Origin: Ruminococcus sp.
Lineage (GTDB): Bacteria > Bacillota > Clostridia > Oscillospirales > Acutalibacteraceae
Length of the DNA: 46,494 nt
Assembly: GCA_017404665.1 (NCBI GenBank)
Contig: JAFRBX010000037.1
Span: 1 to 46,494 of the forward strand
Direction: 5' to 3'
The notes under the pieces were generated by a model. It searched no databases. It was not told the origin of the DNA and saw only the letters and a list, made by a program, of their open reading frames with translations. Below, piece by piece: positions 14,044 to 43,184 of the stretch (position 1 is the first letter of the stretch; every line of letters starts with the position of its first letter). The position numbers were made by a program, and so were the translations under genes.

Positions 14044-14153
14044 TTGTGATATGATAATATGGTTATCAAAGTTTACCGCGCGGCGAATAACTTCTTTCTT
14101 TGAGCTTTATAGAAGCATCCGACTTGCTGAGCACCGCGCAAAAGGATGATGAG

Positions 14154-15950: not shown

Positions 15951-16534
15951 AAAAAGACGTCATGATATGCGGCGTCGGCGGTCAGGGCACCGTCCTCGCT
16001 TCCAAGATCATTGCGGCGTCCGCAACGGACGAAGGCAATGCCGTCCACTCTGCCGAAACCATCGGCATGGCGCAGAGAGGCGGTCCTGTCACCAGCCACG
16101 TGCGAATCGGCGAGGACGCCTTCTCACCGCTGATTCCGATCGCAGGAGCCGATCTGCTGATCGCTTTCGAGCCGAGTGAAGCGATTCGCAATCTGAGATA
16201 TCTAAAAAAGGACGGCTTTGTCATCGTGAACCGCGTTCCCGTGAAGCCGACGTCCCTAGGCGGCTCGGAGGGCTATGACGGAAAAGCGGAGATCGCGTAT
16301 CTGCGGTCAAAATGCCAATGTCTCGTTGTCGATTCCGATGAGCTGTGCGCACCCTTCGGATCGTCCAAGTTTTTTAATGTCGCAGTATTGGGTGCGGCGC
16401 TGGGATCGGGAGAGCTCGGTCTGAAGGAAGAAACGGTCCGCAGAACGATCACCAAAATCGTTCCCAAAAGATTTCAGGAAAAGAATCTCGCCGCTCTGAC
16501 GGCAGGGATGAAGATAGGAGAAGGTTTATTATGA
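15947..16534 (+). CDS. iorB: Indolepyruvate:ferredoxin oxidoreductase, beta subunit
   Basis: A 195-residue gamma-type 2-oxoacid oxidoreductase domain: VGGQGTVLASKIIA, then AETIGMAQRGGPVTSHVRIG, both hallmarks of IorB. It is the partner of IorA. It starts at the ATG that overlaps the iorA stop, with GGAGGTG upstream, and ends overlapping the paaK start in the same ATGA fashion. This strict coupling suggests fixed stoichiometry. Confidence 0.92.
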   Translation: MKKDVMICGVGGQGTVLASKIIAASATDEGNAVHSAETIGMAQRGGPVTSHVRIGEDAFSPLIPIAGADLLIAFEPSEAIRNLRYLKKDGFVIVNRVPVKPTSLGGSEGYDGKAEIAYLRSKCQCLVVDSDELCAPFGSSKFFNVAVLGAALGSGELGLKEETVRRTITKIVPKRFQEKNLAALTAGMKIGEGLL

Positions 16535-28453: not shown

Positions 28454-28708
28454 TTATTTTCCAAATAGGGAAAAACGTTTCTTCTCAAATGGCGCCGTCT
28501 GAACATCCAGCACCTTGTACCCTGTTTTACCGATCGCTTCACGCAGTCCCGCTTCATCGAGCGGACTGTCGCTGATAATTTCGGTCACGCCTTTTGCGTG
28601 TGATGACTTAACGGAATTAACCATACAGACGCTCCTGACAGTGTCGTTGATATGGCTCTCACACATGGAACACATCATCCCGTCGATTTTCAATGTAGTC
28701 TTAATCAT
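28454..28708 (-). CDS. Heavy-metal-associated (HMA) domain protein
   Basis: An 84-residue metallochaperone-like protein. KIDGMMCSMCESHIND carries the CxxC metal site (Cys13, Cys16), and the rest fits the ferredoxin-like HMA fold with a basic tail. It would bind Cu(I), Zn or a similar soft metal. GGAGG before the ATG at 28708 gives the start. No P-type ATPase is nearby. A strong promoter with a metalloregulator-like palindrome lies ~300 bp upstream in the right orientation. Confidence 0.75.
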   Translation of the reverse strand: MIKTTLKIDGMMCSMCESHINDTVRSVCMVNSVKSSHAKGVTEIISDSPLDEAGLREAIGKTGYKVLDVQTAPFEKKRFSLFGK

Positions 28709-29005
28709 AGTTTCCTCCGTTCTTATCCTGCCGCCTTCAGCTTTGTCGGCAGTCTGCCGTTTACTCATTGCTGATATTATTTTGTACATTTCTCACTGCT
28801 ATCGGAACGGTGTCCGTTTTTTAAAGCAATGCGCACATTTCATTGCTTTGAAGATCATGATTGAGCTGTAACGGTATTTCTCAGACATCAAATCACTCTT
28901 CGCACCACAGGGGTAGTGTAAGCTAACTATTTGTTTGAAAAAAACTCTCATCATCTCATGGCACACATAGTAAAAGCTGTTCCTCATGATAAGAGAAAGA
29001 TAACT
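28709..29005 (-). other. Leader or decayed region between promoter and HMA gene
   Basis: About 300 bp of probable transcript without a firm gene. A 62-codon open frame (28799-28987) ends in MKCAHCFKKRTPFR with a CxxC, but lacks a clear ribosome binding site. It may be a small metal-related peptide, a remnant or chance. Confidence 0.3.
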
Positions 29006-29056
29006 CGGTTAGCTTCTGCTAACCGATATTATATGCTATCTGTCTGTTTTTGTCAA
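29006..29056 (-). promoter_or_regulatory. Consensus promoter with DtxR-like palindrome at the start site
   Basis: On the minus strand, TTGACA (29051-29056), 17 bp, TATAAT (29028-29033). Just downstream is a perfect 20-bp inverted repeat CGGTTAGC-AGAA-GCTAACCG (29006-29025) covering the expected start. GGTTAGnnnnnnCTAACC is close to the DtxR/IdeR box core, so metal-dependent repression is plausible. Confidence 0.7.
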
Positions 29057-29389: not shown

Positions 29390-29392
29390 AAA

Positions 29393-29429
29393 AGAGTCAA
29401 GAGCCGAGGCGTTCTCGGCTCTTGACTCT
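29393..29429 (+). terminator. Terminator after the MBL-fold fragment
   Basis: AGAGTCAAGAGCCGA and its exact complement form a 15-bp stem with a 7-nt loop, followed by TTGAAAT. Confidence 0.65.
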
Positions 29430-29482
29430 TTGAAATCAGAACACAACAACCTGTAATGAATCGAAGGGTCCGCAGTCGCTTT

Positions 29483-29650: not shown

Positions 29651-30796
29651 TCATTTCATTTCAGACCTTGATATCTCCTTCACAGCAAATATCGCTTTGT
29701 CTATTTCTTCTATCGAGTTAAAATACGAAAAGCTGAATCTTACTGCGCCTTGTTCTTTTGTGCCGAGCGCCCTGTGCAGTCTCGGCGCACAGTGAGCGCC
29801 TGCCCGTACCGCAATGTCATACTGTTCAAACAGTATGTCGGCGACCTCTCCCGAGTCCAGATCTCCGATATTCAGCGCTACGATCGCCGTGTGTTCTCTA
29901 CTGAGATCTCCGTATACCGTTACACGGTCGATATTTTTTATGCCGTTATAAAACCGTTCTGTCAAGAACGTTTCTTTGTTTTCAATACAGTCCAAACCGG
30001 TTTCGTTGATAAAGTCTAATGCAGCGGATAATCCGGCGATTCCGTGTCCGTTCAAGGTTCCTGCCTCCAACAGGGTAGGTAATCTTTCGGGTTGAGCGCG
30101 GCTGTATGTCTGTACGCCTGTTCCTCCTACGATCAGCGGACGAATCTTGACCCCTTCTCCGATGCACATTCCGCCGGTTCCCTGCGGGCCCATCAGACCC
30201 TTGTGACCCGTAAAGCACAAGATATCTATTCCAAGCTCCTGCATATCGATTTTTTTAGATCCTGCCGTTTGAGCGGCGTCGACGATCAGCAGAATATTGT
30301 TTTTGCGGGAGATTTCGCTGATACGGCGCATATCAGTCATATTCCCTGTCAAATTAGATGCGTGTGTACATACGATCGCTTTAGTGTTAGGTTTTATCAT
30401 CCGCTCAAAGTCACGATAATCCAAACAGCCTTTCTTATCCGCGGGGACAAAGTCGACCTCTACACCTCTCTCATCCTGCAGCCGATACAGAGGGCGCAGG
30501 ACGGAATTGTGCTCAAGATCGGTTGATATCACATGGTCTGAGCTTGACAGGACGCCGTATATAGTCATGTTGAGCGCCTGCGTCACATTGCTTGTAAAAA
30601 CAACATGGTCTGCTCTTTTGCAGTTGAAAAACCGCGCGATCTTTTCCCTTGCCTCATATACCGCGCTTGCCGCGTCGATGCTGTAGCCGTGAGCGCCCCT
30701 CGCTGTATTGCCGAGCGTCTGCATAGCCGTAAGGATCGCGCTGCCTACCGCCTCCGGTTTGATTAATGTGGTCGAAGCGTTGTCAAGATAAATCAT
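29651..30796 (-). CDS. Cysteine desulfurase/selenocysteine lyase-like PLP enzyme
   Basis: A 381-residue class V aminotransferase: IYLDNASTT start, DLEHNSVLRP, VDAAQTAG, FTGHKGLMGPQGTGG (the PLP lysine is in GHKG) and AGAHCAPRLHRALG, whose cysteine is the persulfide/perselenide carrier. It is co-operonic with an HTH regulator and divergent from the selenium genes, so mobilising selenium or sulfur for SelD or the hydroxylase cofactor is more likely than a housekeeping Fe-S role. GAGGAATAAG precedes the ATG. Confidence 0.85.
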   Translation of the reverse strand: MIYLDNASTTLIKPEAVGSAILTAMQTLGNTARGAHGYSIDAASAVYEAREKIARFFNCKRADHVVFTSNVTQALNMTIYGVLSSSDHVISTDLEHNSVLRPLYRLQDERGVEVDFVPADKKGCLDYRDFERMIKPNTKAIVCTHASNLTGNMTDMRRISEISRKNNILLIVDAAQTAGSKKIDMQELGIDILCFTGHKGLMGPQGTGGMCIGEGVKIRPLIVGGTGVQTYSRAQPERLPTLLEAGTLNGHGIAGLSAALDFINETGLDCIENKETFLTERFYNGIKNIDRVTVYGDLSREHTAIVALNIGDLDSGEVADILFEQYDIAVRAGAHCAPRLHRALGTKEQGAVRFSFSYFNSIEEIDKAIFAVKEISRSEMK

Positions 30797-30808
30797 AGAT
30801 CTTATTCC

Positions 30809-31168
30809 TCAATCCTTTAAATCAGCGTAAAAGGAAAATTTTTCAGCAAGCAGATGATCGGCATAAGCGTTCAGCTCATCGCGGTATTCATTATACGCTT
30901 TAAGCATCTTCATAGCATTATCCGTTAACTCGGCTCCGCCTCCGTTTTTGCCTCCTATTGTTGAAATGATCAGCTTAAAGCCCAGATGCTCCTCACAGCT
31001 TTTCAGTATGGTCCACGCTTTGGAATATGCCATGCCCATAGAAGCCGCGGCAGATCGCAGAGAGCGGTATTTTTCGACCCGGAGCAGCAGTGAGGCTATA
31101 CCGGGGCCAAAGCACTTTTCATCGGTAAATAACCGTACTGAAAGCTTTGCATTCAACTTGCCGGTCAT
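30809..31168 (-). CDS. ModE/LysR-type winged-helix regulator
   Basis: A 119-residue protein equal to the N-terminal DNA-binding domain of ModE: GPGIASLLLRVEKYRSLRSAAASMGMAYSKAW, then GGKNGGGAELTDNAMKML. There is no C-terminal molybdate (MOP) domain. Such short forms occur with molybdenum enzymes and in selenium hydroxylase clusters. It is likely to control its own operon and the divergent one. Confidence 0.8.
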   Translation of the reverse strand: MTGKLNAKLSVRLFTDEKCFGPGIASLLLRVEKYRSLRSAAASMGMAYSKAWTILKSCEEHLGFKLIISTIGGKNGGGAELTDNAMKMLKAYNEYRDELNAYADHLLAEKFSFYADLKD

Positions 31169-31201
31169 AAATCGACGCCCCTTTATTACAACATTATTTT
31201 T

Positions 31202-31230
31202 ATTATATCCTGTTTTTACCCTTGAGTCAA
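31202..31230 (-). promoter_or_regulatory. Promoter of the regulator-desulfurase operon
   Basis: On the minus strand, TTGACT (31225-31230), 17 bp, TATAAT (31202-31207). Its -35 is two bases from the divergent -35. Confidence 0.8.
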
Positions 31231-31232
31231 TC

Positions 31233-31273
31233 TTGCAAACTGCATCCTCATTTGCTATAATAATATCGTTATA
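31233..31273 (+). promoter_or_regulatory. Promoter of the DUF3343-yqeC-yqeB-selD operon with ModE-like half-site
   Basis: TTGCAA (31233-31238), 17 bp, TATAAT (31256-31261). TATCGTTATA (31264-31273), at the start site, resembles half of the E. coli ModE box (TATCGnTATATA). Confidence 0.75.
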
Positions 31274-31309
31274 CTATTAAAAGAATACCGTCAGAGGATT
31301 TAACCTGAA

Positions 31310-31546
31310 ATGAGAGAAAAAAAACAGAGTATCGTGATCACCTTTTACACCACAGCGGAAGCGATGGCAACGAAAAAGCTCTGCAAGGTAAAAATGATAA
31401 AGGGAAAAACGATATCCGCACCTCGCTCGCTTTCTGCTGATTGCGGCATAGCGTGGTGCTCGGATATCGAGTACGGAGATATTTTGAAAAGGGCATTGAC
31501 CGATGCCGGGATCGAATATGCGGGTATATTTGAATTATTGATTTGA
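31310..31546 (+). CDS. DUF3343 protein (putative Se/S carrier)
   Basis: A 78-residue DUF3343 protein: VITFYTTAEAMATKKLCK and ISAPRSLSADCGIAWCSD with a conserved cysteine in the SxxCGxA context. Comparative genomics has tied this family to selenium-cofactor organisms. It may pass selenium or sulfur; there is no direct evidence. It is first in the operon. Confidence 0.75.
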   Translation: MREKKQSIVITFYTTAEAMATKKLCKVKMIKGKTISAPRSLSADCGIAWCSDIEYGDILKRALTDAGIEYAGIFELLI

Positions 31547-31561
31547 GAAAGATATAACAAA

Positions 31562-32233
31562 ATGAAAATATCTCAAATATTAAGGATAACGCCGGGTGTT
31601 ACCGCATTGATCGGCGGCGGCGGAAAAACAACATTGATGTACAAGCTTGCCGAGGAGCTTTCCGCTTTCGGAACCGTGATCGTTTGTACTACGACAAAGA
31701 TCTATGAGCCGGATGATACACCTGTATTGACAGGCAAGACATATGAAGAGATCGTCTCAGCTCTGAAAAGCCGTCGTATCATTTGTGTGGGTACAAAAAT
31801 CGCCTCAGGTAAGCTGTCTGCGCCTGCTGTCAGCTTTGACAGCCTGAGAAAGCTTGCCGACTATATCATCGTTGAAGCAGACGGTGCACATGGACTGCCG
31901 ATCAAAGCTCATGCGGATTATGAGCCGGTTATCCCCGCAGAAACAAATAAAACGGTTCTGGTAATCGGCGCCGATGCTTTTGGACAGCCTATAGCTGAAG
32001 TCTGTCACAGACCTGAGTTGTTTTCCATGATCGCATGCGTTGATATGCGATCTGCCGTTACGCCTCAAATCATCGGGCGTGTGATTACAAGTGAGGGCTA
32101 TGGAGACTGTTTGTTGATCAATAAAGCTGAAGACGATAAAGCGAAAGAGAACGCGGCCGTCCTCGCTCGTATGCTGAAGATACCTGTAACGGCAGGAAGC
32201 TTAAAAAGGGAGGAATACACTTGTTTGCACTGA
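31562..32233 (+). CDS. yqeC: Selenium-dependent hydroxylase accessory protein YqeC
   Basis: A 223-residue protein. A P-loop GGGGKTT (18-24) comes first, then VCTTTKIY, YIIVEADGAHGLPIKAH and later NKAED, giving a small NTPase. YqeC is one of the markers that accompany SelD and molybdenum hydroxylases in genomes with the selenium cofactor (Haft and Self). Its stop overlaps the yqeB start by 13 bases. Confidence 0.88.
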   Translation: MKISQILRITPGVTALIGGGGKTTLMYKLAEELSAFGTVIVCTTTKIYEPDDTPVLTGKTYEEIVSALKSRRIICVGTKIASGKLSAPAVSFDSLRKLADYIIVEADGAHGLPIKAHADYEPVIPAETNKTVLVIGADAFGQPIAEVCHRPELFSMIACVDMRSAVTPQIIGRVITSEGYGDCLLINKAEDDKAKENAAVLARMLKIPVTAGSLKREEYTCLH

Positions 32234-33039
32234 TTCGCGGCGCAGGTGATCTTGCGAGCGGTATCGCGCTGAGACTGTGGCATAGTGGGTTTGATGTTGT
32301 TATGACCGACACGGAGCATCCTACGACGATTCGCCGAACGGTGGCTTTCTCACAGGCAATCGTCAAAGGACGGACAGATGTAGAGGATGTCAGCGCCCAA
32401 AAAGCCGAAAACGTCGCCCATGCCGTAGAATTGCTCAAAAGAAATATCCTTCCCGTTTTTATAGATCCCGAATGCAAATGCCGTCATGAACTAAGACCCG
32501 ATATCATTATCGACGCTATCCTTGCAAAGCGGAATTTGGGAACAAAAATCACCGATGCTCCGATCGTAATCGGAGTGGGTCCCGGTTTTGAAGCCGCCGT
32601 CGATTGTCATGCTGTCATTGAGACAATGAGAGGACATACGCTGGGCAGAGCGATTTATAAAGGATGTGCTCTGCCAAACACAAACATACCGGGACTGATC
32701 GGAGGTTTTGCAGGCGAACGTGTCCTGAGGGCGCCTGACGACGGCATTTTCATCGCAACAAGACAAATAGGCGATGCGGTTGATGCCGGCGATATTGTGG
32801 GATATGTCGGTGACAAACCTATGGAGTGCACGATCAGCGGCGTTCTACGAGGTCTGCTTGCCGACGGAACAAAGACACACAAAGGTATGAAAGCCGGCGA
32901 TGTTGACCCGAGAGGTAAAAAGGAATATTGTTATACAGTATCTGACAAGGCTCTGGCAATCGCCGGAGGCGTTTTAGAGGCGATCTTGTATCTGGAATAT
33001 TCACATGGGAGGGAGATTATTGACGGAAAAAGAAGTTAG
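32221..33039 (+). CDS. yqeB: Selenium-dependent molybdenum cofactor maturation protein YqeB
   Basis: A 272-residue protein with the Rossmann-type start FALIRGAGDLASGIALRLW and a C-terminal half with GEVL-type GDIVGYVGDKPM and GMKAGDVDPRG. XdhC-related families help insert sulfur into molybdopterin; YqeB is thought to act on selenium. The start is TTG at 32221, set by GGGAGGAAT seven to eight bases upstream. Confidence 0.88.
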   Translation: MFALIRGAGDLASGIALRLWHSGFDVVMTDTEHPTTIRRTVAFSQAIVKGRTDVEDVSAQKAENVAHAVELLKRNILPVFIDPECKCRHELRPDIIIDAILAKRNLGTKITDAPIVIGVGPGFEAAVDCHAVIETMRGHTLGRAIYKGCALPNTNIPGLIGGFAGERVLRAPDDGIFIATRQIGDAVDAGDIVGYVGDKPMECTISGVLRGLLADGTKTHKGMKAGDVDPRGKKEYCYTVSDKALAIAGGVLEAILYLEYSHGREIIDGKRS

Positions 33040-34060
33040 GCTGACAAAGCTGGCGAATTGCGCAGGCTGCGGAGCAAAGGTCGGCGCCGGAGTACTTGCA
33101 AAGCTGCTGGACGGATTAAAGGTACACAGTGATCCTAATCTTCTGGTTGGCTTTGATAAAAGTGACGATGCGAGCGTATACAGGGTTTCTGATGATTTGG
33201 CTTTGGTGCAGACGGTGGATTTTTTTCCTCCTATCGCCGACGATCCCTACACCTTCGGCGCGATCGCCGCAACCAACGCGCTTTCGGATGTATACGCTAT
33301 GGGAGGCGAGCCGAAGCTCGCGCTGAATATCATGGCGGTGCCCTCCGACCTGCCGAAGGAGGCTGTACATCAGATCCTGCGCGGCGGATATGAAAAAGCG
33401 TATGAGGCGGGAGCAATCATCACCGGCGGGCACAGTATCCTTGATAAGGAGCCAAAGTATGGGCTTGCCGTTACGGGCTTTGTCCATCCCGACAGGGTAT
33501 TGACAAACAGCGGCGCTAAGGAGGGCGATGTGCTTTTGCTGACGAAGCCCCTTGGGATAGGTATACTGACCACTGCGGCAAAGGCAGATCTGGTATCCGA
33601 AGAAACGATGGAGTACGCTGTCGGATTGATGACGACGCTCAACAAGAACGCGAGAGACGCGATGGTCAAATATCGTGTGCACGCCTGCACGGATGTCACC
33701 GGCTTTGCCCTGCTGGGTCATGCCTGTGAGATGGCGCAAGGCAGCAGCGTCGAGATACATATCAATGTTGAGTCGATCGACCTGATCCCCGACGCGTTGG
33801 AATTCGCGCGCTCAGGCATATTGCCTGAGGGTATGTATCGGAACAGAAGCTTTGCTGAGGCGTATGTTGATCCCGGCGACATCGAACTGGCAAAACAAGA
33901 TATGCTGTATGATCCGCAGACCTCGGGAGGACTTCTGATTGCCGTCCACCCGGACGACGCAGATGTGCTATTGGAAGAGTTGAAAACCTCCGTTCCCTCA
34001 GCCCAAAGGATCGGAACGGTAAAACAGTACAGCGGCGGCGCTCATATCTATCTTCATTAG
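33020..34060 (+). CDS. selD: Selenophosphate synthase SelD (cysteine form)
   Basis: A 346-residue enzyme making selenophosphate from selenide and ATP. LANCAGCGAKVG holds Cys17, the position of the essential Cys/Sec in E. coli; the second cysteine of GCGCK is Ala19. VGFDKSDDASVY, LVQTVDFFPP and DVYAMGG are the ATP/metal motifs. The start is a TTG at 33020 with GGAGG seven bases upstream; the ATG at 33005 lies before that ribosome binding site. It overlaps yqeB by 20 bases. No selA or selB is in the window. Confidence 0.9.
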   Translation: MTEKEVRLTKLANCAGCGAKVGAGVLAKLLDGLKVHSDPNLLVGFDKSDDASVYRVSDDLALVQTVDFFPPIADDPYTFGAIAATNALSDVYAMGGEPKLALNIMAVPSDLPKEAVHQILRGGYEKAYEAGAIITGGHSILDKEPKYGLAVTGFVHPDRVLTNSGAKEGDVLLLTKPLGIGILTTAAKADLVSEETMEYAVGLMTTLNKNARDAMVKYRVHACTDVTGFALLGHACEMAQGSSVEIHINVESIDLIPDALEFARSGILPEGMYRNRSFAEAYVDPGDIELAKQDMLYDPQTSGGLLIAVHPDDADVLLEELKTSVPSAQRIGTVKQYSGGAHIYLH

Positions 34061-34081
34061 GAAAAGATAAATGATACAGCC

Positions 34082-34110
34082 TTGACAAACGCACCGTTAT
34101 ACTTTAAAAT
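34082..34110 (+). promoter_or_regulatory. Internal promoter for yedEF
   Basis: TTGACA (34082-34087), 17 bp, TAAAAT (34105-34110), in the 129-bp gap after selD. Confidence 0.7.
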
Positions 34111-34189
34111 ATATAACGATATCAGCAGACTCTTAAATCGTCTGGCAATATTATTGATCACTTGACTCGGATAAGAAAAGGAGAAAACT

Positions 34190-35302
34190 ATGAGTAAGAG
34201 AATCAACCTGTGGGTTATCATTACGGGGTTTGTGATAGGAGTCGCCGCACTGGCGCTGACTGCGTTCGGCAACCCTGCCAATATGGGCTTCTGTATCGCG
34301 TGCTTTTTGCGCGATATTGCCGGAGCGACAAAATTACATTCCGCATCGGTCGTACAATATGTCCGCCCCGAGATAATCGGTCTGGTCTTAGGCTCGACCA
34401 TACTGGCGGTGATTACGGGAGAATTTAAGCCTAAGGCCGGTTCTTCTCCCGCTACCCGATTTATCATCGGCGCATTCGTGATGATCGGCGCGCTGGTGTT
34501 CCTCGGCTGCCCGCTGAGAATGGTGATCCGTATGGGCGGCGGCGACCTGAACGCTTTCGTAGGCTTAGGCGGATTTGCACTCGGTATTCTGATCGGTATC
34601 TTCTTCATCAAAAAAGGCTTCACGCTCAAGCGCAATCATCCGGTTACCTTGACTGAGGGAATGGCGATGCCCGGCTTGATGATCGGCCTGCTGGTGCTGC
34701 TGATCGCCGTACCGACAGTTTTTGCGTTTTCTGAGGAGGGTCCCGGCTCCAAGCACGCTCCTATGCTTATATCTCTCGCCATAGCGATCGTTGTCGGCGC
34801 TCTCGCTCAAAAATCACGCATCTGTATGGTCGGCGGTATGCGAGATGCGATCATGTTCAAGGATTTCAATCTGATCGCGGGCTTCGGCGCGATTTTTGTC
34901 ACCGTACTTCTGGGTAATATTATCCTCGGTAATTTCAAGGGCTTCTCCGCATATAATCAGCCGATCGCCCACGAGAGCTGGCTGTGGAATCTGTTGGGTA
35001 TGGCTCTCGTAGGCTGGGGCAGCGTACTGCTCGGCGGCTGTCCTTTAAGACAGTTGATTTTAGCCGGTGAAGGCAACGGCGACTCTGCCGTAACAGTCCT
35101 CGGTATGATCGTCGGCGCAGCGTTTGCTCACAACTTCGGTCTTGCCGGCGCCGCATCAAAGCTCGCCGAGGATGGAACCTATACTGCGGGCGGGGTGGCG
35201 ACCGCCGGAAAGATCGCGGTCGGTATCGGTTTTGCCGTCTTACTCCTGATATCTATTGTCAATATTTTAAAAAAGAAAACAAAGGAGGCTGCAGTCATAT
35301 GA
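34190..35302 (+). CDS. yedE: Selenium metabolism membrane protein YedE
   Basis: A 370-residue membrane protein with about ten helices and two copies of the family motif GCPLR (LGCPLRMVIRMGGGD; LGGCPLRQLILAGEGN), as in YeeE/YedE thiosulfate or selenium transporters. In selenium-using bacteria YedE is a proposed selenium importer. Its stop overlaps the yedF start (ATGA). AAAAGGAG precedes the ATG. Confidence 0.88.
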   Translation: MSKRINLWVIITGFVIGVAALALTAFGNPANMGFCIACFLRDIAGATKLHSASVVQYVRPEIIGLVLGSTILAVITGEFKPKAGSSPATRFIIGAFVMIGALVFLGCPLRMVIRMGGGDLNAFVGLGGFALGILIGIFFIKKGFTLKRNHPVTLTEGMAMPGLMIGLLVLLIAVPTVFAFSEEGPGSKHAPMLISLAIAIVVGALAQKSRICMVGGMRDAIMFKDFNLIAGFGAIFVTVLLGNIILGNFKGFSAYNQPIAHESWLWNLLGMALVGWGSVLLGGCPLRQLILAGEGNGDSAVTVLGMIVGAAFAHNFGLAGAASKLAEDGTYTAGGVATAGKIAVGIGFAVLLLISIVNILKKKTKEAAVI

Positions 35303-35505
35303 TTGACGCAAGAGGTCTTAGCTGCCCCATGCCGGTTGTCATGGTACAGAACGAGGTCAAAAAATCATCTCCCAATGAATTAAAGGTTCAGGTCGACAGC
35401 ATGGTTTGTGTAGAGAACATCACCCGCTTCGCGAGCTCAAAGAAATATGATGTTGTTGTCGAGAAGAAGGATGGAGAGTTTATTCTCACGCTGAAAAAAC
35501 AGTAA
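35299..35505 (+). CDS. yedF: YedF/TusA-type selenium-sulfur carrier (short form)
   Basis: A 68-residue TusA-fold protein: IDARGLSCPMPVV with the CPxP active cysteine (Cys9). Selenium-type YedF proteins usually have a second DsrE-like domain of ~120 residues, absent here. It is coupled to yedE, which fits a membrane-to-carrier transfer. Confidence 0.85.
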   Translation: MIDARGLSCPMPVVMVQNEVKKSSPNELKVQVDSMVCVENITRFASSKKYDVVVEKKDGEFILTLKKQ

Positions 35506-35533
35506 TTGTTAAGTTCAAATATGTCCCCTATAT

Positions 35534-35569
35534 CCGTCGGTCAGCGTCCGCTGATCGGCGGTTTTCTTT
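35534..35569 (+). terminator. Terminator after yedF
   Basis: CCG-CGGTCAGCG and CGCTGATCGGCGG pair, followed by TTTTCTTTCTT. Confidence 0.7.
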
Positions 35570-35615
35570 CTTATATTGTAATATGATTGAATAGCGAGAA
35601 ATGTTTGATTGAATG

Positions 35616-35644
35616 TTGATTATTCACAACGCCTGTGTTATAAT
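35616..35644 (+). promoter_or_regulatory. Promoter of the fused xanthine dehydrogenase gene
   Basis: TTGATT (35616-35621), 17 bp, TATAAT (35639-35644). The UTR is ~40 nt, so there is no room for a Moco riboswitch. Confidence 0.75.
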
Positions 35645-35691
35645 AACTCTGTATATTATTAACAGAAACAAGCGGAGGAGGGTATCGTTTC

Positions 35692-38277
35692 ATGGCAACA
35701 TTTTCTGTGAACGGCAGAACCGTTACGACCGAAAAGAATCAGAAACTGATACGCTTCCTGCGTGACGAGCTCAGGCTGACAAGCGTCAAAGACGGATGCA
35801 GCGAGGGAGCTTGCGGTACCTGTCATGTTCTTGTCGACGGAAAGCTGACGAAAGCCTGTATTCCTCAGACGGATAAATTGGAGGGCAGGTCCGTTTTGAC
35901 AGTAGAGGGACTCTCGGATTTTGAAAAAGAGGCATATACATACGCATTTGGAAAAGCCGGAGCGGTTCAGTGCGGCTTTTGCATCCCCGGGATGGTCATG
36001 GCAGCAAAATCACTGATTGATGTCAATCCCGAGCCTACAAGAGAGGAAGCCGCCTTTGCAATCAGGAACAATATCTGCCGCTGTACCGGTTATGTGAAGA
36101 TCATCGACGGTATCTTGCTCGCCGCAAAGATCATAAGAGAAAAGCGGATTCCGTCGGACGACAGCGATTATATCGTAGGGTCGCGTTCTCTTAGGATCGA
36201 TGTTGCGGAGAAGGTCCGGGGCTACGGAAAGTATCCTGATGATATTTATGTGGACGGCATGTGCTACGGCAGCGCGGTGCGCAGCGTGTATCCGCGTGCT
36301 CGTGTATTGTCGATCGACACGAAAGAGGCTGAGGCTCTGCCCGGCGTCGTTTGCGTTCTGACAGCAAAAGATATCCCGGGAAAAAATTATGTCGGTCATA
36401 TCAAAAAAGATCAGCCGACCCTGATACCGGTCGGGGAGATCACACATTATTTGGGCGATTCTGTCGCCTTGGTGTGCGCGAAGGACAGAGAAACGCTTGA
36501 ACGGGCAAAAAAGCTCGTCAAGGTCGAATATGAGGTGTTGGAAGCAGTTCATAACCCTGAGGAAGCCGCAAGAGAGAGCGCACCCCTCGTTTTTGAAACC
36601 GACAAGGACAATGTGCAGGCATATAAGCATGTGTCCCGCGGAGACGCAGACGGAGCGATCAAGCATTCTAAATATGTTTTGACACATCATTTTGAAACGC
36701 CGTGGACTGAGCACGCTTTCTTAGAGCCGGAATGCTGTGTTGCTATTCCGCTCGAAAACGGCGGCGTCAAGCTCCTGACGACTGATCAGAGCGCCCATAC
36801 TACGCTTCATGAGTGCGCTCAGATGCTGGGGGTAGACTATGCTCACTGTCTGGTAGAGAATCAGCTGGTGGGCGGCGGCTTCGGCGGGAAAGAGGATATG
36901 TCTGTTCAGCATCATGCCGCCCTGATCGCGTATGTCGCGAGGGTTCCTGTCAAGGTCAAGCTCAGCAGAAGCGAATCCATATTGGTACATCCCAAGCGAC
37001 ACCCGTTTAAAATGGATTTCACCATGGGCTGTGATGAGAACGGAATCATTCAGGGCGTGAAGGCGAGCGTCATTTCAGACACCGGTGCATTTGCGTCATT
37101 GGGCGGTCCGGTGCTCGAGCGCGCATGTACGCACGCTGCCGGTCCCTACGCCTATGAAAATTTTGAAATAGAGGGTCGGGCATATTATACCAACAATCCT
37201 CCTGCCGGTGCGTTCAGAGGCTTCGGTGTAACGCAGACTTGCTTTGCCACCGAGTCGCTCTTGAATGAGATGGCTGAGCTTGTCGGCATTTCGCCGTGGG
37301 AGATCAGATACCGCAACGCGATCCGTCCCGGCGGGGTTCTGCCGAACGGCCAGATCGTCGGCGCTGAGACCGGTCTGGTGGAGACGCTGCAGGCAATAAA
37401 ACCTTACTATGATGAAGCCGTTAATAACGGCGACCCGGTAGGACTCGCGTGTGCGATGAAAAACGCGGGTGTCGGCGTGGGACTCCCCGACTGGGGAAGA
37501 GCAAAACTGATCATCGAGAACGACGCGAAGGTTCATATCTATTCCGGCGCCTCGTGTATCGGACAGGGACTCGGGACAGTGCTGACACAGATGGTAGTCA
37601 CCAACGCAGGTCTATCGTTTGATGATATCGTATATGAGAGAAGCAACACATGGATCGCCCCCGATTCGGGAGATACCTCCGGCTCGCGACAGACGCTGAT
37701 CACCGGAGAAGCATGCAGAAGGGCCTGCGAAAAGCTCGTCGAGGCTTTGAAGGGCAAGACGCTGCAAGACCTGATCGGTCGGGAGTTTTACGGAGAATAT
37801 CTGGCAAAAACCGATCCCCTCGGCGCGGATGTTCCCAATCCCGTCTCTCATGTGGCATACGGCTATGCGACACAGATGTGTATTTTGGATAAAGAAACCG
37901 GTCGAATCAAGAAGCTGGTCGCCGCTCATGACGTCGGCAAAGCCGTCAACCCGCTGTCCTGCGAGGGACAGATCGAGGGTGGTATGGTCATGTCGATGGG
38001 CTTTGCGCTGACCGAACAATATCCGATCGACGATAATTGCAAGCCCACAGCGAAATACGGTACACTCGGACTGTTCAGAGCAAACCAGATCCCGCCTCAG
38101 ATAAAAGCGATCGTCGTAGAGAAACCGGGGCTCGATCTTGCCAACGGCGCGATCGGTATCGGAGAGATCACATCGATCCCCACCGCGCCCGCGATCGCCG
38201 AGGCGTATTACCGGTATGACGGACAACGGCGCTTTTCGCTCCCGCTGGACAATACACCATACGCTCGAAAAAAATAA
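35692..38277 (+). CDS. Selenium-dependent-type xanthine dehydrogenase (2Fe-2S and molybdopterin domains fused)
   Basis: An 861-residue fusion. Residues 1-140 carry two 2Fe-2S clusters: Cys36, 41, 44, 56 and Cys94, 97, 129, 131 (CGFC...CRC). The molybdopterin domain follows, with GGGFGGKEDMS, PPAGAFRGFGV and the late GIGEITSIPTAPAI holding the catalytic Glu. There is no FAD domain, so electrons must leave to another carrier. This layout matches the selenium-dependent xanthine dehydrogenase family (TIGR03311 type), where selenium is a labile ligand on molybdenum, not selenocysteine. Confidence 0.85.
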   Translation: MATFSVNGRTVTTEKNQKLIRFLRDELRLTSVKDGCSEGACGTCHVLVDGKLTKACIPQTDKLEGRSVLTVEGLSDFEKEAYTYAFGKAGAVQCGFCIPGMVMAAKSLIDVNPEPTREEAAFAIRNNICRCTGYVKIIDGILLAAKIIREKRIPSDDSDYIVGSRSLRIDVAEKVRGYGKYPDDIYVDGMCYGSAVRSVYPRARVLSIDTKEAEALPGVVCVLTAKDIPGKNYVGHIKKDQPTLIPVGEITHYLGDSVALVCAKDRETLERAKKLVKVEYEVLEAVHNPEEAARESAPLVFETDKDNVQAYKHVSRGDADGAIKHSKYVLTHHFETPWTEHAFLEPECCVAIPLENGGVKLLTTDQSAHTTLHECAQMLGVDYAHCLVENQLVGGGFGGKEDMSVQHHAALIAYVARVPVKVKLSRSESILVHPKRHPFKMDFTMGCDENGIIQGVKASVISDTGAFASLGGPVLERACTHAAGPYAYENFEIEGRAYYTNNPPAGAFRGFGVTQTCFATESLLNEMAELVGISPWEIRYRNAIRPGGVLPNGQIVGAETGLVETLQAIKPYYDEAVNNGDPVGLACAMKNAGVGVGLPDWGRAKLIIENDAKVHIYSGASCIGQGLGTVLTQMVVTNAGLSFDDIVYERSNTWIAPDSGDTSGSRQTLITGEACRRACEKLVEALKGKTLQDLIGREFYGEYLAKTDPLGADVPNPVSHVAYGYATQMCILDKETGRIKKLVAAHDVGKAVNPLSCEGQIEGGMVMSMGFALTEQYPIDDNCKPTAKYGTLGLFRANQIPPQIKAIVVEKPGLDLANGAIGIGEITSIPTAPAIAEAYYRYDGQRRFSLPLDNTPYARKK

Positions 38278-38279
38278 AA

Positions 38280-38308
38280 AGCACAGCCCGATTTTGCTCG
38301 ACTGTGCT
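38280..38308 (-). terminator. Convergent terminator between the fused dehydrogenase and ygfJ
   Basis: AGCACAG and CTGTGCT pair across a 15-nt loop. On the minus strand the stem is followed by TTTTTATTTTTTT. Confidence 0.7.
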
Positions 38309-38314
38309 GAAGAT

Positions 38315-38902
38315 TCAGTTATTTAATGCGATATCATCCGGGGTGTCGATGTCTGTCAACTCATTTTCGTCAACCTCAAACAGAATCAGGTTATCCTTGT
38401 GTCGTTCGAGCACACTTCTGCCGCCTTTGTCACCCGACAGGCCGCATAGTTCTTCAAAGTAACTCTTCGGAAATATACAGGGGTTTCCTCTTTTGCCATG
38501 GCTGCTCATGCTGACAATGCTTTCGGGATAATCGCTGAAAGTATCCAGAATCCCTGAAATGCTTTTGCGTTTCAACCATGGCTGATCGGCTACCAGAAAG
38601 AGAATACCGTCACACCTATCCTTCATCGCCTGCACACCGAGTATAACGCTTCGGCTGATACCAAGCTCAGGATGACGGTTGATTACGCACTCAAATCCGA
38701 AATCTGACGCTCGCTTTGAAATGGTCTCATATTGTGTGATAACCATTACGGCGCATAACCGCTCCGTGGGGACGGTCTCAAAGGCGTGCTCTATCATAGA
38801 TTTTCCGTCTATCTGAGCGAGCAGCTTGTTTTTTCCGAAACGGGTCGAGTTGCCTGCTGCGAGGATTACACAGCCGATCAAAGGCTGATCTGTGCGTTTC
38901 AA
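38315..38902 (-). CDS. ygfJ: MocA/YgfJ-type molybdenum cofactor nucleotidyltransferase
   Basis: A 195-residue MobA-like NTP transferase: VILAAGNSTRFGKNKLL, LVADQPWL, HGKRGNPCIFP, GDKGGRSVL. This family adds CMP to molybdopterin or, in the YgfJ branch, matures selenium-type hydroxylases. It lies between the two dehydrogenases but on the opposite strand, with its own promoter. The start is a TTG with AGGATG upstream. Confidence 0.85.
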   Translation of the reverse strand: MKRTDQPLIGCVILAAGNSTRFGKNKLLAQIDGKSMIEHAFETVPTERLCAVMVITQYETISKRASDFGFECVINRHPELGISRSVILGVQAMKDRCDGILFLVADQPWLKRKSISGILDTFSDYPESIVSMSSHGKRGNPCIFPKSYFEELCGLSGDKGGRSVLERHKDNLILFEVDENELTDIDTPDDIALNN

Positions 38903-38926
38903 TTCATCACATCCTAACTATGTATT

Positions 38927-38955
38927 ATTTTACAAAATCATCCTATCGGTGTCAA
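38927..38955 (-). promoter_or_regulatory. Promoter of ygfJ
   Basis: On the minus strand, TTGACA (38950-38955), 17 bp, TAAAAT (38927-38932). I could not find a comparable plus-strand promoter for xdhA in this 99-bp gap. Confidence 0.7.
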
Positions 38956-39001
38956 GACAGGACACATCAACATCATCATTCCTTCAGAGGAGGGAAATCT
39001 T

Positions 39002-41314
39002 ATGAATAAAGTCGGAAAAAGCGAAGCAAGAATAGACGGCTATGATAAAGCCACCGGCAGAACCAAGTATTACGAGGATCGAATGCCGGCAGGCACGCTT
39101 TATGTGCGTATCAAGCACGCCGAAAAGGCTCATGCCATCGTGAGGTCCATTAACGCCGAGGCGGCGCTGCAAATCCCCGGCGTCGTCAAGGTGCTGACCT
39201 GCTTTGATGTCCCGGACATTCCTTTTCCTACCGCAGGTCATCCGTGGTCAATGGATCCCGGACATCAGGATGTGGCAGACAGAAAGCTTTTGAACACGCA
39301 TGTTCGCTACTGGGGCGACGATATCGCCGTTGTAATAGCGGATAACGAGGTCGACGCTGTGCAGGGCGTCCGCGCTTTGACCGTCGAGTATGAGGAGCTT
39401 CCGTTCGTGCTGGATGTACAGAAAGCCATGGAAGACGGCGCCCCTTTGCTCCATGAAAGATTTCCTAACAATATACTAAAGCACACTCAGAACAGACTCG
39501 GCGATTACCAAAGCGCTATCAAAGAAGAAGGACTGCTTAAGGTCGAGGGATGGTACGAGACGCCAACCGTACAGCACTGTCATATCGAAAACCACGGCTG
39601 CTATGCCTATGAAGAAAACGGCCGTATTGTTGTGGTATCGTCCACGCAGATCCCGCATATCATCCGCCGCGTCGTGGGTCAGGCGCTGGGCAGACCGTGG
39701 GGCGATATCCGTATCATCAAGCCGTATATCGGCGGAGGCTTCGGAAATAAGCAGGACGCGCTTTACGAGCCGCTTTGCGCATGGTGTACAACGCAGGTGG
39801 GCGGCCGCTGCGTCAGGATCGACTGTTCCAGAGAAGAGACTTTTGTTTCCAACCGTGTACGCCACGCGATCCGGTTCCACATCGTCACCTGGCTCAGGAA
39901 AAACGGAACGATCGCTGCCAGAAAAGTGGAATGCTTCTCTAATCAGGGAGCGTACGCTTCTCACGGACATTCCATCGTCGCAAAGGCGATGGGTTCCTTC
40001 CACCAGCATTATCCCTGTCCGAATATGGAATGCGACAGCTATACGGTATTTACCAACAAACCCGCCGCCGGAGCGATGCGCGGCTACGGTATGCCTCAGG
40101 CGTCCTTTGCCGACGAGTCCAATATTGATGACTGTGCGCAGACCGTGGGGATGGATCCGCTGGAATTCAGGCGCCTGAATATTATGCCCGACGGCTACAA
40201 GGATAACTTTTCCGGAAATGTCAACTATTTTGATTCTTTCAGAGCGTGTATGAAAAAGGGCGCCGAGATCATTGATTACGAGCGCAAGAGAAAAGAATAT
40301 GCCTGCGACAGCGGTTCCGTCCGCCGCGGTATCGGACTGGCAACCTTCTGGTATAACACCGCCGTCTATCCTATCTCTCTCGAAACATCCTCCAACCGTA
40401 TGCTCTTAAATCTCGACGGCACGGTCACGATGCAGTGCGGCGAGACCGAGATCGGTCAGGGCGCGGACACTGTCTATGCTCAGATGACCGCTGAGGCTCT
40501 GGGGCTCAAAAGCTACAAGGATGTCCATGTCATATCCTGTCAGGATACCGATATCACGCCTACAGGACTCGGCGCTTATGCCTCACGCCAGACATATGTA
40601 GCGGGCTTTTCTATTCAGCAGACTGCCGGACTCTTAAAAGAAAAGATTTTGAAATACGCGTGTGAAATAACACAGACGGCGGTATCGGATATGGATATCG
40701 AGGAAGGCTGCATTGTCAGAAAAGACGACAGACAGATTCTGATGAGTCTGAGCGAGCTTGCGATGACCGCCCAGTATAATCCTGTTCACAGCGAGCATAT
40801 CACTGCCGAATCCACCTTTACGATCAGAAACAACGCGTATTCCTTCGGTTGTACCTTTGCGGAGGTCGAGGTCGATATCGAGATGTGCAAGACCAAGCTG
40901 ATCAGGATCGTCAATGTCCACGACTGCGGCAGACTGATCAATCCCGCCCTTGCCGAAGCGCAGGTACACGGCGGTATGTCTATGGCGATTGGCTACGGTC
41001 TGAGCGAGCAGCTGATCTTCGACGAAAAAACCGGCAGACCTTTGAATAACAATCTGCTTGACTACAAGCTGTCTACCTTTATGGATCACCCGAACCTTGA
41101 GGCGTACTTTATCGAGAATCCCGAACCGACCTCTCCCTTTGGCACCAAAGCGCTCGGTGAGCCCCCGGCTTGTTCCGGCGCGCCCGCGATCCGTAATGCA
41201 ATTTTGAATGCCACAGGCGTCGCCATCAACAAAAATCCGATCAATCCGCATATCCTTTTTGCGGAATTCAGCAGAGCGGGGCTGATAAGCGACCCTTGGA
41301 AGGAGGAGAACTGA
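39002..41314 (+). CDS. xdhA: Xanthine dehydrogenase molybdenum-binding subunit
   Basis: A 770-residue molybdopterin subunit: GGGFGNKQDA, PAAGAMRGYGMPQ, GETEIGQGADTVYAQ and FGTKALGEPPACSGAPAI with the catalytic Glu. It has the length of E. coli XdhA. It hydroxylates a purine or related heterocycle; the exact substrate cannot be read. It forms a complex with the FAD and 2Fe-2S subunits encoded next. GAGGAGGG precedes the ATG. Confidence 0.88.
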   Translation: MNKVGKSEARIDGYDKATGRTKYYEDRMPAGTLYVRIKHAEKAHAIVRSINAEAALQIPGVVKVLTCFDVPDIPFPTAGHPWSMDPGHQDVADRKLLNTHVRYWGDDIAVVIADNEVDAVQGVRALTVEYEELPFVLDVQKAMEDGAPLLHERFPNNILKHTQNRLGDYQSAIKEEGLLKVEGWYETPTVQHCHIENHGCYAYEENGRIVVVSSTQIPHIIRRVVGQALGRPWGDIRIIKPYIGGGFGNKQDALYEPLCAWCTTQVGGRCVRIDCSREETFVSNRVRHAIRFHIVTWLRKNGTIAARKVECFSNQGAYASHGHSIVAKAMGSFHQHYPCPNMECDSYTVFTNKPAAGAMRGYGMPQASFADESNIDDCAQTVGMDPLEFRRLNIMPDGYKDNFSGNVNYFDSFRACMKKGAEIIDYERKRKEYACDSGSVRRGIGLATFWYNTAVYPISLETSSNRMLLNLDGTVTMQCGETEIGQGADTVYAQMTAEALGLKSYKDVHVISCQDTDITPTGLGAYASRQTYVAGFSIQQTAGLLKEKILKYACEITQTAVSDMDIEEGCIVRKDDRQILMSLSELAMTAQYNPVHSEHITAESTFTIRNNAYSFGCTFAEVEVDIEMCKTKLIRIVNVHDCGRLINPALAEAQVHGGMSMAIGYGLSEQLIFDEKTGRPLNNNLLDYKLSTFMDHPNLEAYFIENPEPTSPFGTKALGEPPACSGAPAIRNAILNATGVAINKNPINPHILFAEFSRAGLISDPWKEEN

Positions 41315-41317
41315 TCT

Positions 41318-42208
41318 ATGTATGATATCAAAGCGCTGTATGAAGCGGAAAGCATCGAACACGCCGTATCCCTGCGTCTGGAACATCCCGACGCACAGAT
41401 TATCGCCGGCGGTTCGGATGTTCTGGTACAAATACGCGAGGGCAGGCGCGCCGGCAAAGAGCTGATCTCCATCTATATGCTCGACGAGATGCGCGGCGTC
41501 AGCCTTGACGACGACGAGAATATCCGGATCGGTTCGCTCACGAGCTTTTCTCATATCACCCGTGATCCGATTATACAAAAATATATCAATGTATTGGGTG
41601 AAGCGGTCGATATGGTCGGTTCTCCTCAGATCAGGAATATCGGCACCATCGGCGGCAACACCTGCAACGGAGTAACATCGGCGGATTCTGCTTCCACCCT
41701 GCACGCGTGGGAGGCGATCGTAGAGCTCACGGGAAAAAACGGCGTCAGACGGATGCCGATAAAGGATTTTTATATAAAAGCCGGCACCGTAGATATCCGT
41801 GCCGACGAGGGCGAGATACAAACAGCGATCCTGATCCCCAAGTCAAGCTATGAGAATACCTACGGACACTATATCAAATACGGTATGCGCAACGCTATGG
41901 AGATCGCCTCCCTCGGATGCAGTGTGAATGTTCGGCTCAGCGATGATAAAAAGACGGTTGACAGATGCCGTATTGCGTACGGCGTTGCAGGTCCCGTTCC
42001 GATGCGCGCACCGAGCGCCGAGGCGGTCGCTAACGGAGAAAATGTTTCGGAAACATTGATCGATGAATTCGCATTGGCTGTTCTGAACGACATCAACCCG
42101 CGCAACTCATGGAGAGCGAGTCGGGATTTCAGATTGCATATTGCGGTACAGATGGCAAAGCGCTGTCTCTTAGAATCCATCAAAAAAGCCGGGGGTGTTA
42201 TTCAATGA
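41318..42208 (+). CDS. xdhB: Xanthine dehydrogenase FAD-binding subunit
   Basis: A 296-residue subunit with the PCMH-type FAD motifs IIAGGSDVLVQIR and TIGGNTCNGVTSADS, and the C-terminal CO-dehydrogenase-flavoprotein domain. It passes electrons from the Fe-S clusters to NAD+. It starts three bases after xdhA and overlaps xdhC by ATGA. Confidence 0.9.
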   Translation: MYDIKALYEAESIEHAVSLRLEHPDAQIIAGGSDVLVQIREGRRAGKELISIYMLDEMRGVSLDDDENIRIGSLTSFSHITRDPIIQKYINVLGEAVDMVGSPQIRNIGTIGGNTCNGVTSADSASTLHAWEAIVELTGKNGVRRMPIKDFYIKAGTVDIRADEGEIQTAILIPKSSYENTYGHYIKYGMRNAMEIASLGCSVNVRLSDDKKTVDRCRIAYGVAGPVPMRAPSAEAVANGENVSETLIDEFALAVLNDINPRNSWRASRDFRLHIAVQMAKRCLLESIKKAGGVIQ

Positions 42209-42699
42209 GTCAATACAAGGTTGTACACTGCAACATCAACGGCAAAAATGTTGAGAAAGCCGTGGATGTACGAGCCTCGCTTACCGATATGCTGAGAAAC
42301 GAATACCATCTGACCTCCGTAAAAAAGGGCTGCGAGGTCGGCGAATGCGGCGCGTGTAATGTTCTGATAGACGGAGAGGCGTTCAACTCCTGTATTTACC
42401 TTGCTGTATGGGCAGAGGGAAAACATATCAGGACGCTGGAAGGCTTAGCAGAGCCGGACGGAAGGCTCTCGGATATCCAGCAGGCATTCATAGAAGAAAC
42501 TGCGATCCAGTGCGGCTTCTGTACTCCGGGCTTTATTATGACGGCAGTAGAGATATTAGAAGCAAACAAACTATATACCGATGACGAACTGAGAAAACTC
42601 CTGTCGGGACACCTCTGTCGTTGTACGGGATATGAAAATATATTTCGGGCGGTTAAAAAAACAATGTATAACAGGTTAGGCAAACCAATTGATTTTTAG
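42205..42699 (+). CDS. xdhC: Xanthine dehydrogenase 2Fe-2S subunit
   Basis: A 164-residue subunit with two clusters: Cys43, 48, 51, 63 (CEVGECGAC) and Cys103, 106, 138, 140 (CGFC...CRC). It is the electron link between xdhA and xdhB. The ATG overlaps the xdhB stop. Confidence 0.92.
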   Translation: MSQYKVVHCNINGKNVEKAVDVRASLTDMLRNEYHLTSVKKGCEVGECGACNVLIDGEAFNSCIYLAVWAEGKHIRTLEGLAEPDGRLSDIQQAFIEETAIQCGFCTPGFIMTAVEILEANKLYTDDELRKLLSGHLCRCTGYENIFRAVKKTMYNRLGKPIDF

Positions 42700-42802: not shown

Positions 42803-43184
42803 CTTTGAAAACAACGACCAATATCCAAAGGAAACCATCGGAGGCATGACCTCTCAGCTCGTTATCCATTTTGTGAAGCCGGAAGAAATGGGCTTTGAGC
42901 CGAAAGTCATGGAAGAGAATCACATCTCAACGATCGTTTGCAGTCATGTGGGCTTGAAGGGACTGTTCAACCATACTGAGATGGCGCACCTGTTCAAGCA
43001 GACAGATGATGGATTATATATGTTCAGCCGATTCTGGATGGGCAAGCCCATTAAATTGAAAGCTGTGCGTAGAAAAATCATGACCGAAAAAATGGTGCGC
43101 GGAATGGCGAAGCATTGCTGTATCGAATACAGAAATCTTGCTCAGATTCTTCCCGCTTTATACGCTGAATACGGTAATGAATGA
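42803..43184 (+). pseudogene. DAPG-hydrolase (PhlG)-like C-terminal fragment
   Basis: The open frame from 42846 gives 112 residues: GFEPKVMEENHISTIVCSH, then MAHLFKQTDDGLYMFSRFWM, typical of the second half of DAPG-hydrolase-family proteins (~250 residues). The same frame upstream still reads as protein (EKLPSFENNDQYPKETIGG) back to about 42803, where it meets a stop. The ATG at 42846 has no spaced ribosome binding site, so the gene is 5'-truncated. It directly follows xdhC. Confidence 0.55.

Follow-up and report, generated by a model that had tools for sequence, protein, structure and literature searches.

The stretch of DNA examined here, a 46,494-nt window from Ruminococcus sp. (assembly GCA_017404665.1, contig JAFRBX010000037.1, forward strand, positions 1 to 46,494), carries at 29651–42699 a gene island of the selenium-dependent molybdenum hydroxylase (SDMH) type. 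We consider it probable that this is an SDMH island with an orphan SelD which moved between genera; no other known use of selenophosphate was found in its host. The window's genome (G000) is a 2.47 Mb draft in 79 contigs, 95.93% complete, and the survey sample comprised 150 genomes of the host family, taken from a larger group. Genes were named by profile hidden Markov model (HMM) score against a curated cut-off, a score below the cut-off being treated as resemblance only; 30 window proteins, not every open reading frame (ORF) of the window, were scanned in this way.

The island runs from a cysteine desulfurase family gene through genes for a ModE-type helix-turn-helix (HTH) protein, DUF3343, YqeC, YqeB, SelD, YedE, a YedF-like protein, a fused 'selenium-dependent xanthine dehydrogenase' (Se-XDH) and a MocA/YgfJ-like protein to the subunits of XdhABC (Table 1). 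The original prediction, made from the letters alone, had placed an SDMH-type island here; this is confirmed, and all of the genes that it listed are open, contiguous and correct in order, identity and coordinates. The same order, from the desulfurase to the XdhB or XdhC subunit, is repeated at two relatives' loci, L036 and L035, the latter with a LysR gene separating selD from yedE. It is kept as far as the contigs reach in L034 and on both contigs of genome G110 (L044/L054 and L085). The recurring order in relatives is more than chance. The selD–yedE interval is a short gap in the window and about 1.1 kb long in L034. The LysR protein of L035 (L035:11875–12777) scores above the cut-off of the selenium-metabolism model NF040786 (269.3 of 250 bits).

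The SelD of this genome appears to have a single client. A whole-genome check for selA, selB, tRNA-Sec and ybbB, proposed with the original prediction, revealed no full selenocysteine pathway and no SelU in the draft genome: SelA and SelU had no match, SelB gave below-cut-off matches only, and four tRNA-Sec matches lay below the gathering score and coincide with tRNA-Ser, -Gly, -Leu and -Tyr genes. Across the 150 family genomes, SelB exceeded its cut-off in none. YqeB did so in five, namely G000, G074 (same genus), G016, G110 and G146 (another genus, whose island is L035), and SelD in four, all within the five YqeB genomes (Fisher's exact p 2.5e-7). As the five YqeB genomes belong to three genera, the independent events are fewer than the genome count. 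With yqeB in G110 running past the end of its contig and the later island genes on a different one, selD could sit in the gap between them. With no selenocysteine or selenouridine client found, and with SelD above the cut-off only where YqeB occurs, the proposal that SelD serves only the selenium cofactor in this genome is well supported. SelD was also borne out as a Cys form; its Cys lies inside the motif NCAGCGAK, at what we take to be the position held by selenocysteine in some SelDs.

Other YqeB genes were seen elsewhere. A second YqeB-like protein of G146 (contig C11, L021:1471–2265, also L051) scores 173 of 220 bits, is 39% identical to the window's YqeB and lacks many otherwise invariant residues; in the surrounding 19.9 kb, only an ABC ATPase was matched among the island proteins. 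At L037:7892–11828, a desulfurase, DUF3343, YedF-like protein, YqeB and SelD stand together, with no match to YqeC or a hydroxylase within 20.8 kb. We also considered YqeB as a perselenide carrier acting through a conserved Cys, and rejected it: no invariant or nearly invariant Cys is present in 16 aligned sequences (rows from G016, G074 and the G146 paralogue left out) or in 19.

Whether the hydroxylases carry selenium has to be weighed against the alternative that they are ordinary sulfur (sulfido) enzymes with selenium optional, SelD and YqeB being neighbours with another use for selenophosphate. Some observations pull towards that alternative. Genome G051 (97% complete) has an Se-XDH at 1228 bits (cut-off 830) and an XdhC maturation factor, with no SelD above the cut-off and no YqeB match. 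This enzyme family can therefore probably work without selenium, and, as TIGR03311 accepts the G051 enzyme, a match to TIGR03311 is no proof of selenium. The accompanying molybdoenzymes occur also outside SelD-positive genomes, as described in the accessible part of Haft and Self 2008 (PMC2276186). Two further observations count against our main reading: G016, which has YqeB and SelD, gave no match to the XdhC maturation factor, and a C. difficile yqeC deletion shows no clear phenotype in the available text (PMC11448449). Against the sulfur alternative, XdhA exceeds its cut-off in exactly the five YqeB genomes and in none of the other 145 (six genomes including G051 have only more distant matches below it), and all five have Se-XDH above the cut-off. 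Moreover, C. difficile selD and yqeB mutants fail on purines: to grow well on xanthine and on urate, the cells need both genes (PMC11448449, text seen in part). We regard the sulfur alternative as unlikely, and keep to a putative selenium cofactor supplied through SelD.

G051 does bear on how the island is divided. The earlier view that each family of the island is associated with the labile selenium trait fails there, because G051 has Se-XDH, XdhC, a MocA-like and a ModE-type protein in the absence of SelD above the cut-off and of YqeB. SelD, YqeB, YqeC, DUF3343, YedE and the YedF-like protein look like a selenium layer (among these, the survey covered SelD and YqeB), while the enzymes, the MocA-like protein, the ModE-type regulator and the XdhC encoded elsewhere look like a general molybdenum hydroxylase layer. 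This two-layer split agrees with the accessible part of Haft and Self 2008 (PMC2276186). The G051 locus also has a xanthine permease, a MocA-like ORF, molybdenum cofactor (Moco) synthesis genes and a protein (L084:5575–6504) whose MobA-like nucleotidyltransferase domain is followed by a C-terminal stretch matching the ModE-type HTH (29%); this protein may link regulation to the making of the cofactor. About 20 kb from the Se-XDH locus come XdhC, a gene for a ModE-type HTH and an ORF resembling, by eye, a ModB permease. Sixty-five residues separate the G051 Se-XDH from seven others; coming from a single sequence, these are too many for a selenium or sulfur determinant to be named.

The island had been called complete, which does not hold for Moco supply. 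The expected Moco maturation factor XdhC, distinct from the iron-sulfur subunit of the same name, lies on contig C71 of the window's genome, and no Moco synthesis or molybdate transport protein is present among the 30 window proteins scanned. XdhC occurs in six of the 150 family genomes, that is, in four of the five YqeB genomes, G051 and G040 (p 3.7e-6). In G146 and G074 it is the last gene of a run with a substrate-binding protein, a FecCD permease and an ABC ATPase; at locus L048 it directly follows yqeB, and in E. faecalis it lies within the selD neighbourhood (PMC2432076, text seen in part). It is natural to infer that XdhC would be a Moco chaperone acting with YqeB. The domain order of XdhC varies: the protein of the window's genome (L079:9050–9994, C71) has its Rossmann domain ahead of the CoxI domain, opposite to that of G146. 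Upstream of XdhC in G146, the ABC ATPase is fused to a methyltransferase domain (L149:9910–11415), with a longer counterpart in G074 (L124:14964–16466).

Housekeeping and island proteins rank the relatives in opposite ways. Identity to the window's genome is 91.3% in G074 versus 82.9% in G146 for EF-G and 98.1 versus 87.3% for S7, S12 being non-discriminating (91.0 versus 91.5%). For the island proteins it is 57.0 versus 91.8% for Se-XDH, 63.6 versus 88.4% for SelD, 56.2 versus 84.4% for YqeB and 67.2 versus 90.2% for XdhA. As the island identities reverse the housekeeping order, the island probably moved between genera. EF-G, S7 and S12 were used in place of GMP synthetase, which was rejected as a divergence marker (full length in G000 and G051, partial in G074, short matches in G146, none in G016 or G110). 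Reciprocal-best identities from partly fetched genomes are noisy, each genome comparison yielding 10 to 47 pairs. Between the window and G146, yqeC is 64.4% identical and the neighbouring yqeB 84.4%, a contrast in line with the weak C. difficile yqeC phenotype.

The competing account, of an island inherited from the family's ancestor and repeatedly lost, with no movement between genera, fits the lack of any integrase among the 30 window proteins scanned and of any flanking repeat of at least 18 nt at the island ends. The GC content (0.506 in the island versus 0.508 in the window) would fit it too and is uninformative on movement. Horizontal transfer of the trait is described as very rare in the available part of an ISME J 2016 study (PMC5029168). 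Window ORFs of at least 90 aa outside the island have no match beside the relatives' islands (eight loci) except ABC ATPases at 25–32%. The nearness of Se-XDH, SelD and XdhA to those of G146, with EF-G and S7 nearer to same-genus G074, runs counter to this account, and loss alone would require two island types retained side by side. Such a history is very unlikely in our view, and movement between genera is the reading we retain.

A second feature of the island is a 24-bp palindrome, CGTTAT-N12-ATAACG, at its promoters. The window has two copies, at yedE and at the DUF3343-yqeC-yqeB-selD unit (Table 1); at the latter place, the relatives have 1 (L044), 2 (L036), 3 (L034) and 3 (L035) mismatches. 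In the Se-XDH promoter region, a box with at most one mismatch is found in three of five loci and one with two mismatches in L035, upstream of the -35 in the relatives. The intergenic DNA of five islands (19 regions, 3157 bp in all) contains 10 sites with at most one mismatch at spacer 12 and none at spacers 6–11 or 13–18, compared with five sites in a background of 1,761,099 bp from four genomes. Among 120 half-site permutations CGTTAT is the best, with 10 sites to the runner-up's one. An earlier operator pattern with the wrong spacing gave no matches.

Because the pattern came from the island promoters themselves, independent sites weigh more. The exact same box is present upstream of E. coli modA (NC_000913), where it is presumably the ModE operator. 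Context was looked at for three of the five background sites: one is upstream of modA (above cut-off) in G016, and two are directly upstream of the transporter–XdhC operons of G146 and G074. A box also precedes yqeC in G016 (1 mismatch), G074 (2) and two Gemmiger genomes (0 and 1), xdhA in G016 (0) and a MoeA-like gene in G051 (1). At L048, a one-mismatch site at the yqeC start coincides in part with the ribosome-binding site and could have arisen by chance.

On this basis we regard the boxes as genuine operators, which a ModE-type regulator is predicted to bind. Judging by where they lie relative to the -10 and -35, the likeliest signs of regulation would be negative at yedE and the selD unit and positive at Se-XDH. 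The derivation of the pattern from these promoters is one difficulty for this assignment, and there are others. The island's HTH protein has HTH_1 as its sole Pfam domain, with no molybdate-binding (TOBE) domain found. No box was found in the xdhA/mocA interval in four of four loci, in the Se-XDH promoter region of the window (up to two mismatches), in the 19.9-kb XdhC region of the window's own genome (up to two mismatches) or, up to one mismatch, at nine of 16 named YqeB loci. In the window alone, boxes with up to two mismatches are at chance level (2 found versus 1.62 expected).

Another regulator could use the palindromes as its operators, or the HTH protein may fail to bind them. The missing molybdate-binding domain of the HTH protein, its 29% identity to E. 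coli ModE across 72 residues and the nine YqeB loci that lack a box up to one mismatch suit this explanation; half-sites and spacing equal to those of the E. coli modA box, a box before modA in G016, and the lead of CGTTAT among the permutations do not. We find it doubtful and continue with a ModE-type regulator. The HTH protein also matches PDB entries 2ijl (E 3.2e-7) and 1b9m, which is ModE (E 3.4e-5).

A broader proposal is that a ModE-type regulator and these boxes tie selenium import and activation, molybdenum import and cofactor maturation into one regulon, and that the island moves between genera with its operators; we hold the case for it to be evenly balanced. Its targets would be yedE, the DUF3343-yqeC-yqeB-selD unit, the hydroxylases, modA and the unlinked FecCD transporter–XdhC operon, the last four of which are each boxed in at least one relative. 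A limited search of open-licence literature found no report linking ModE sites with selenium-cofactor genes.

Transcription of the island appears to be divided. A single operon is ruled out: the genes are read from both strands, promoter-like sites stand at several points and yedF is followed by a terminator-like hairpin. Gene order is therefore no evidence of the order of steps; a route that had been read from it does not stand. The divergent modE/DUF3343 interval contains two good sigma-70 promoters kept in all five loci, and a hairpin similar to that after yedF is visible after yedF in aligned L034, L035 and L036. At the island's left edge (29391–29431) is a perfect 18-nt inverted repeat with a 5-nt gap, terminator-like, and at 29028–29056 on the minus strand a sigma-70 promoter matching the consensus at 12/12 positions, upstream of a short ORF and an HMA-domain gene (28454–28789).

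We propose the following model from family functions and gene content. YedE would import a selenium or sulfur species, which the desulfurase, DUF3343 and the TusA-domain protein may hand on in protein-bound form. The SelD family makes selenophosphate, which would be its role here. YqeB and YqeC, together with the off-contig XdhC, would then place selenium on a cytidylylated molybdenum cofactor. That cofactor would be the product of the MocA-like protein, such proteins making the cytidine dinucleotide cofactor. The finished cofactor would enter the fused Se-XDH and XdhABC, whose substrates may be hypoxanthine, xanthine or urate. Control of both layers could fall to the ModE-type protein, or to a paralogue of it, acting at the ModE boxes from repressor and activator positions and in response to molybdate.

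Table 1. Genes and predicted control sites of the island. Scores are HMM bits, followed by the curated cut-off where one is given.
Feature	Position	Strand	Evidence
Cysteine desulfurase / selenocysteine lyase family protein, EF2568 type	29651..30796	-	TIGR01977 428.8 of 377 bits
ModE-type HTH protein, 119 aa	30809..31168	-	TIGR00637 51.3 of 98.5 bits, below cut-off
Predicted promoter of modE-desulfurase unit, TTGACT-17-TATAAT	31202..31230	-	TTGACN-17-TATAAT in 5/5 loci
Predicted promoter of DUF3343-yqeC-yqeB-selD unit, TTGCAA-17-TATAAT, TG before -10	31233..31261	+	like site in 5/5 loci
ModE-box-like palindrome, 1 mismatch	31267..31290	.	just 3' of DUF3343-unit -10
DUF3343, putative Se/S carrier	31310..31546	+	PF11823 Se_S_carrier 69.2 bits
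YqeC, P-loop protein	31562..32233	+	TIGR03172 166.8 of 73.05 bits; PF19842 149.2 bits
YqeB, Se-cofactor trait marker	32221..33039	+	TIGR03309 370.3 of 220 bits
SelD, Cys form	33005..34060	+	TIGR00476 406.6 of 125 bits
Predicted promoter of yedE, TTGACA-17-TAAAAT	34082..34110	+	kept in 5/5 aligned loci
ModE-box-like palindrome, exact	34095..34118	.	covers yedE -10; at most 1 mismatch in 5/5 loci
YedE, putative selenium transporter	34190..35302	+	TIGR04112 483.9 of 200 bits
YedF-like protein, 68 aa, TusA domain alone	35299..35505	+	PF01206 64.7 bits
Terminator-like hairpin after yedF	35534..35561	+	12 pairs, 8 G-C, T-rich tail
Promoter-like site of Se-XDH gene	35616..35644	+	sequence pattern
Fused FeS/Mo 'selenium-dependent xanthine dehydrogenase' (Se-XDH)	35692..38277	+	TIGR03311 1235.2 of 830.45 bits
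MocA/YgfJ-like cytidylyltransferase	38315..38902	-	PF12804 121.4 bits
XdhA, molybdenum subunit	39002..41314	+	NF043082 1158.4 of 780 bits
XdhB, FAD subunit	41318..42208	+	NF043083 414.1 of 310 bits
XdhC, iron-sulfur subunit	42205..42699	+	NF043084 256.2 of 217 bits

Three of these names are resemblances. Besides the ModE-type protein, the YedF-like protein falls below the cut-off of the two-domain YedF model TIGR03527 of 194 positions (52.9 of 110 bits), and the MocA/YgfJ-like protein below that of TIGR03310 (156.6 of 186.45 bits), which is still the best model of the library for it. The desulfurase, above the TIGR01977 cut-off, stays below that of the selenocysteine lyase SclA model NF040779 (355.9 of 525 bits), so its substrate may be Cys or Sec. 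For the XdhC iron-sulfur subunit, 42205 is the likely start, the listed ORF opening at 42109. Profile searches give a hint of a Rossmann start (E 0.002) and a faint biotinyl-like end (E 0.17) in YqeB, and a hint of an SRP (signal recognition particle)-type NTPase in YqeC (E 0.003).

Just after the island lies a 112-aa protein (42846–43184) whose match to the DAPG hydrolase domain is confined to the C-terminal half (PF18089 positions 106–223). Elsewhere in the window, at 14100–17772, is a POR_N/TPP (thiamine pyrophosphate)-enzyme oxidoreductase with 4Fe-4S domains, presumably of the indolepyruvate type, with an AMP-binding enzyme further on. Diaminopropionate ammonia-lyase (TIGR01747), which we take to be a member of the uric-acid cluster and which was the sole gene of that cluster searched, gave only below-cut-off matches in the window's genome. 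Rfam at gathering scores gave no match in the window.

Islands of this kind are already known: an orphan-SelD SDMH island was described in Enterococcus faecalis in 2008, and the present one is a further member. According to the accessible parts of two reports, the E. faecalis V583 island EF2562–EF2577 (Haft and Self 2008, PMC2276186; Zhang et al. 2008, PMC2432076) has in common with it an orphan selD, yqeB, yqeC, a SirA/TusA-like gene, an EF2568-type desulfurase, the MobA-related YgfJ, a fused FeS/Mo hydroxylase and a ModE-domain gene. The E. faecalis island includes XdhC and a xanthine/uracil permease, whereas in the window's genome XdhC sits on a separate contig; the present island in turn includes YedE and a second hydroxylase, XdhABC. 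The available text of the two reports does not mention ModE boxes for the V583 island. YedE as transporter, DUF3343 as selenium carrier and YedF as redox protein were predicted by Lin et al. 2015 (PMC5322559), who, in the part available, tie LysR_Se mainly to selenocysteine decoding; G146, by contrast, has its NF040786 LysR in a genome with no SelB above the cut-off.

Beyond this known kind, the island contributes a corrected parts list and a testable control layer that was not found described. The trait appears to occur here without selenocysteine (no SelB above the cut-off in the family sample), so that SelD, YqeB, YqeC, DUF3343 and YedE could be knocked out without selenoprotein side effects. 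The boxes name genes expected to respond together, including a transporter–XdhC operon invisible to gene neighbourhood alone.

A genetic parallel exists in C. difficile, which also makes selenocysteine. Xanthine and urate use depends on SelD and YqeB there as well, but yqeB, yqeC and selD do not co-localise in that organism (PMC11448449, text seen in part). The G051 molybdenum locus shares with the island a TIGR03311 enzyme, a MocA-like protein, a ModE-type HTH and XdhC, and differs in belonging to a genome without SelD above the cut-off and without YqeB, which makes it a natural candidate for a sulfur-form control. The E. coli ModE regulon is alike in the exact CGTTAT-N12-ATAACG before modA and a related HTH; here, however, the regulator is the HTH part alone and the boxes stand on selenium genes. 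If the one-regulon proposal is true, the selenium supply for the cofactor would be wired to molybdenum status.

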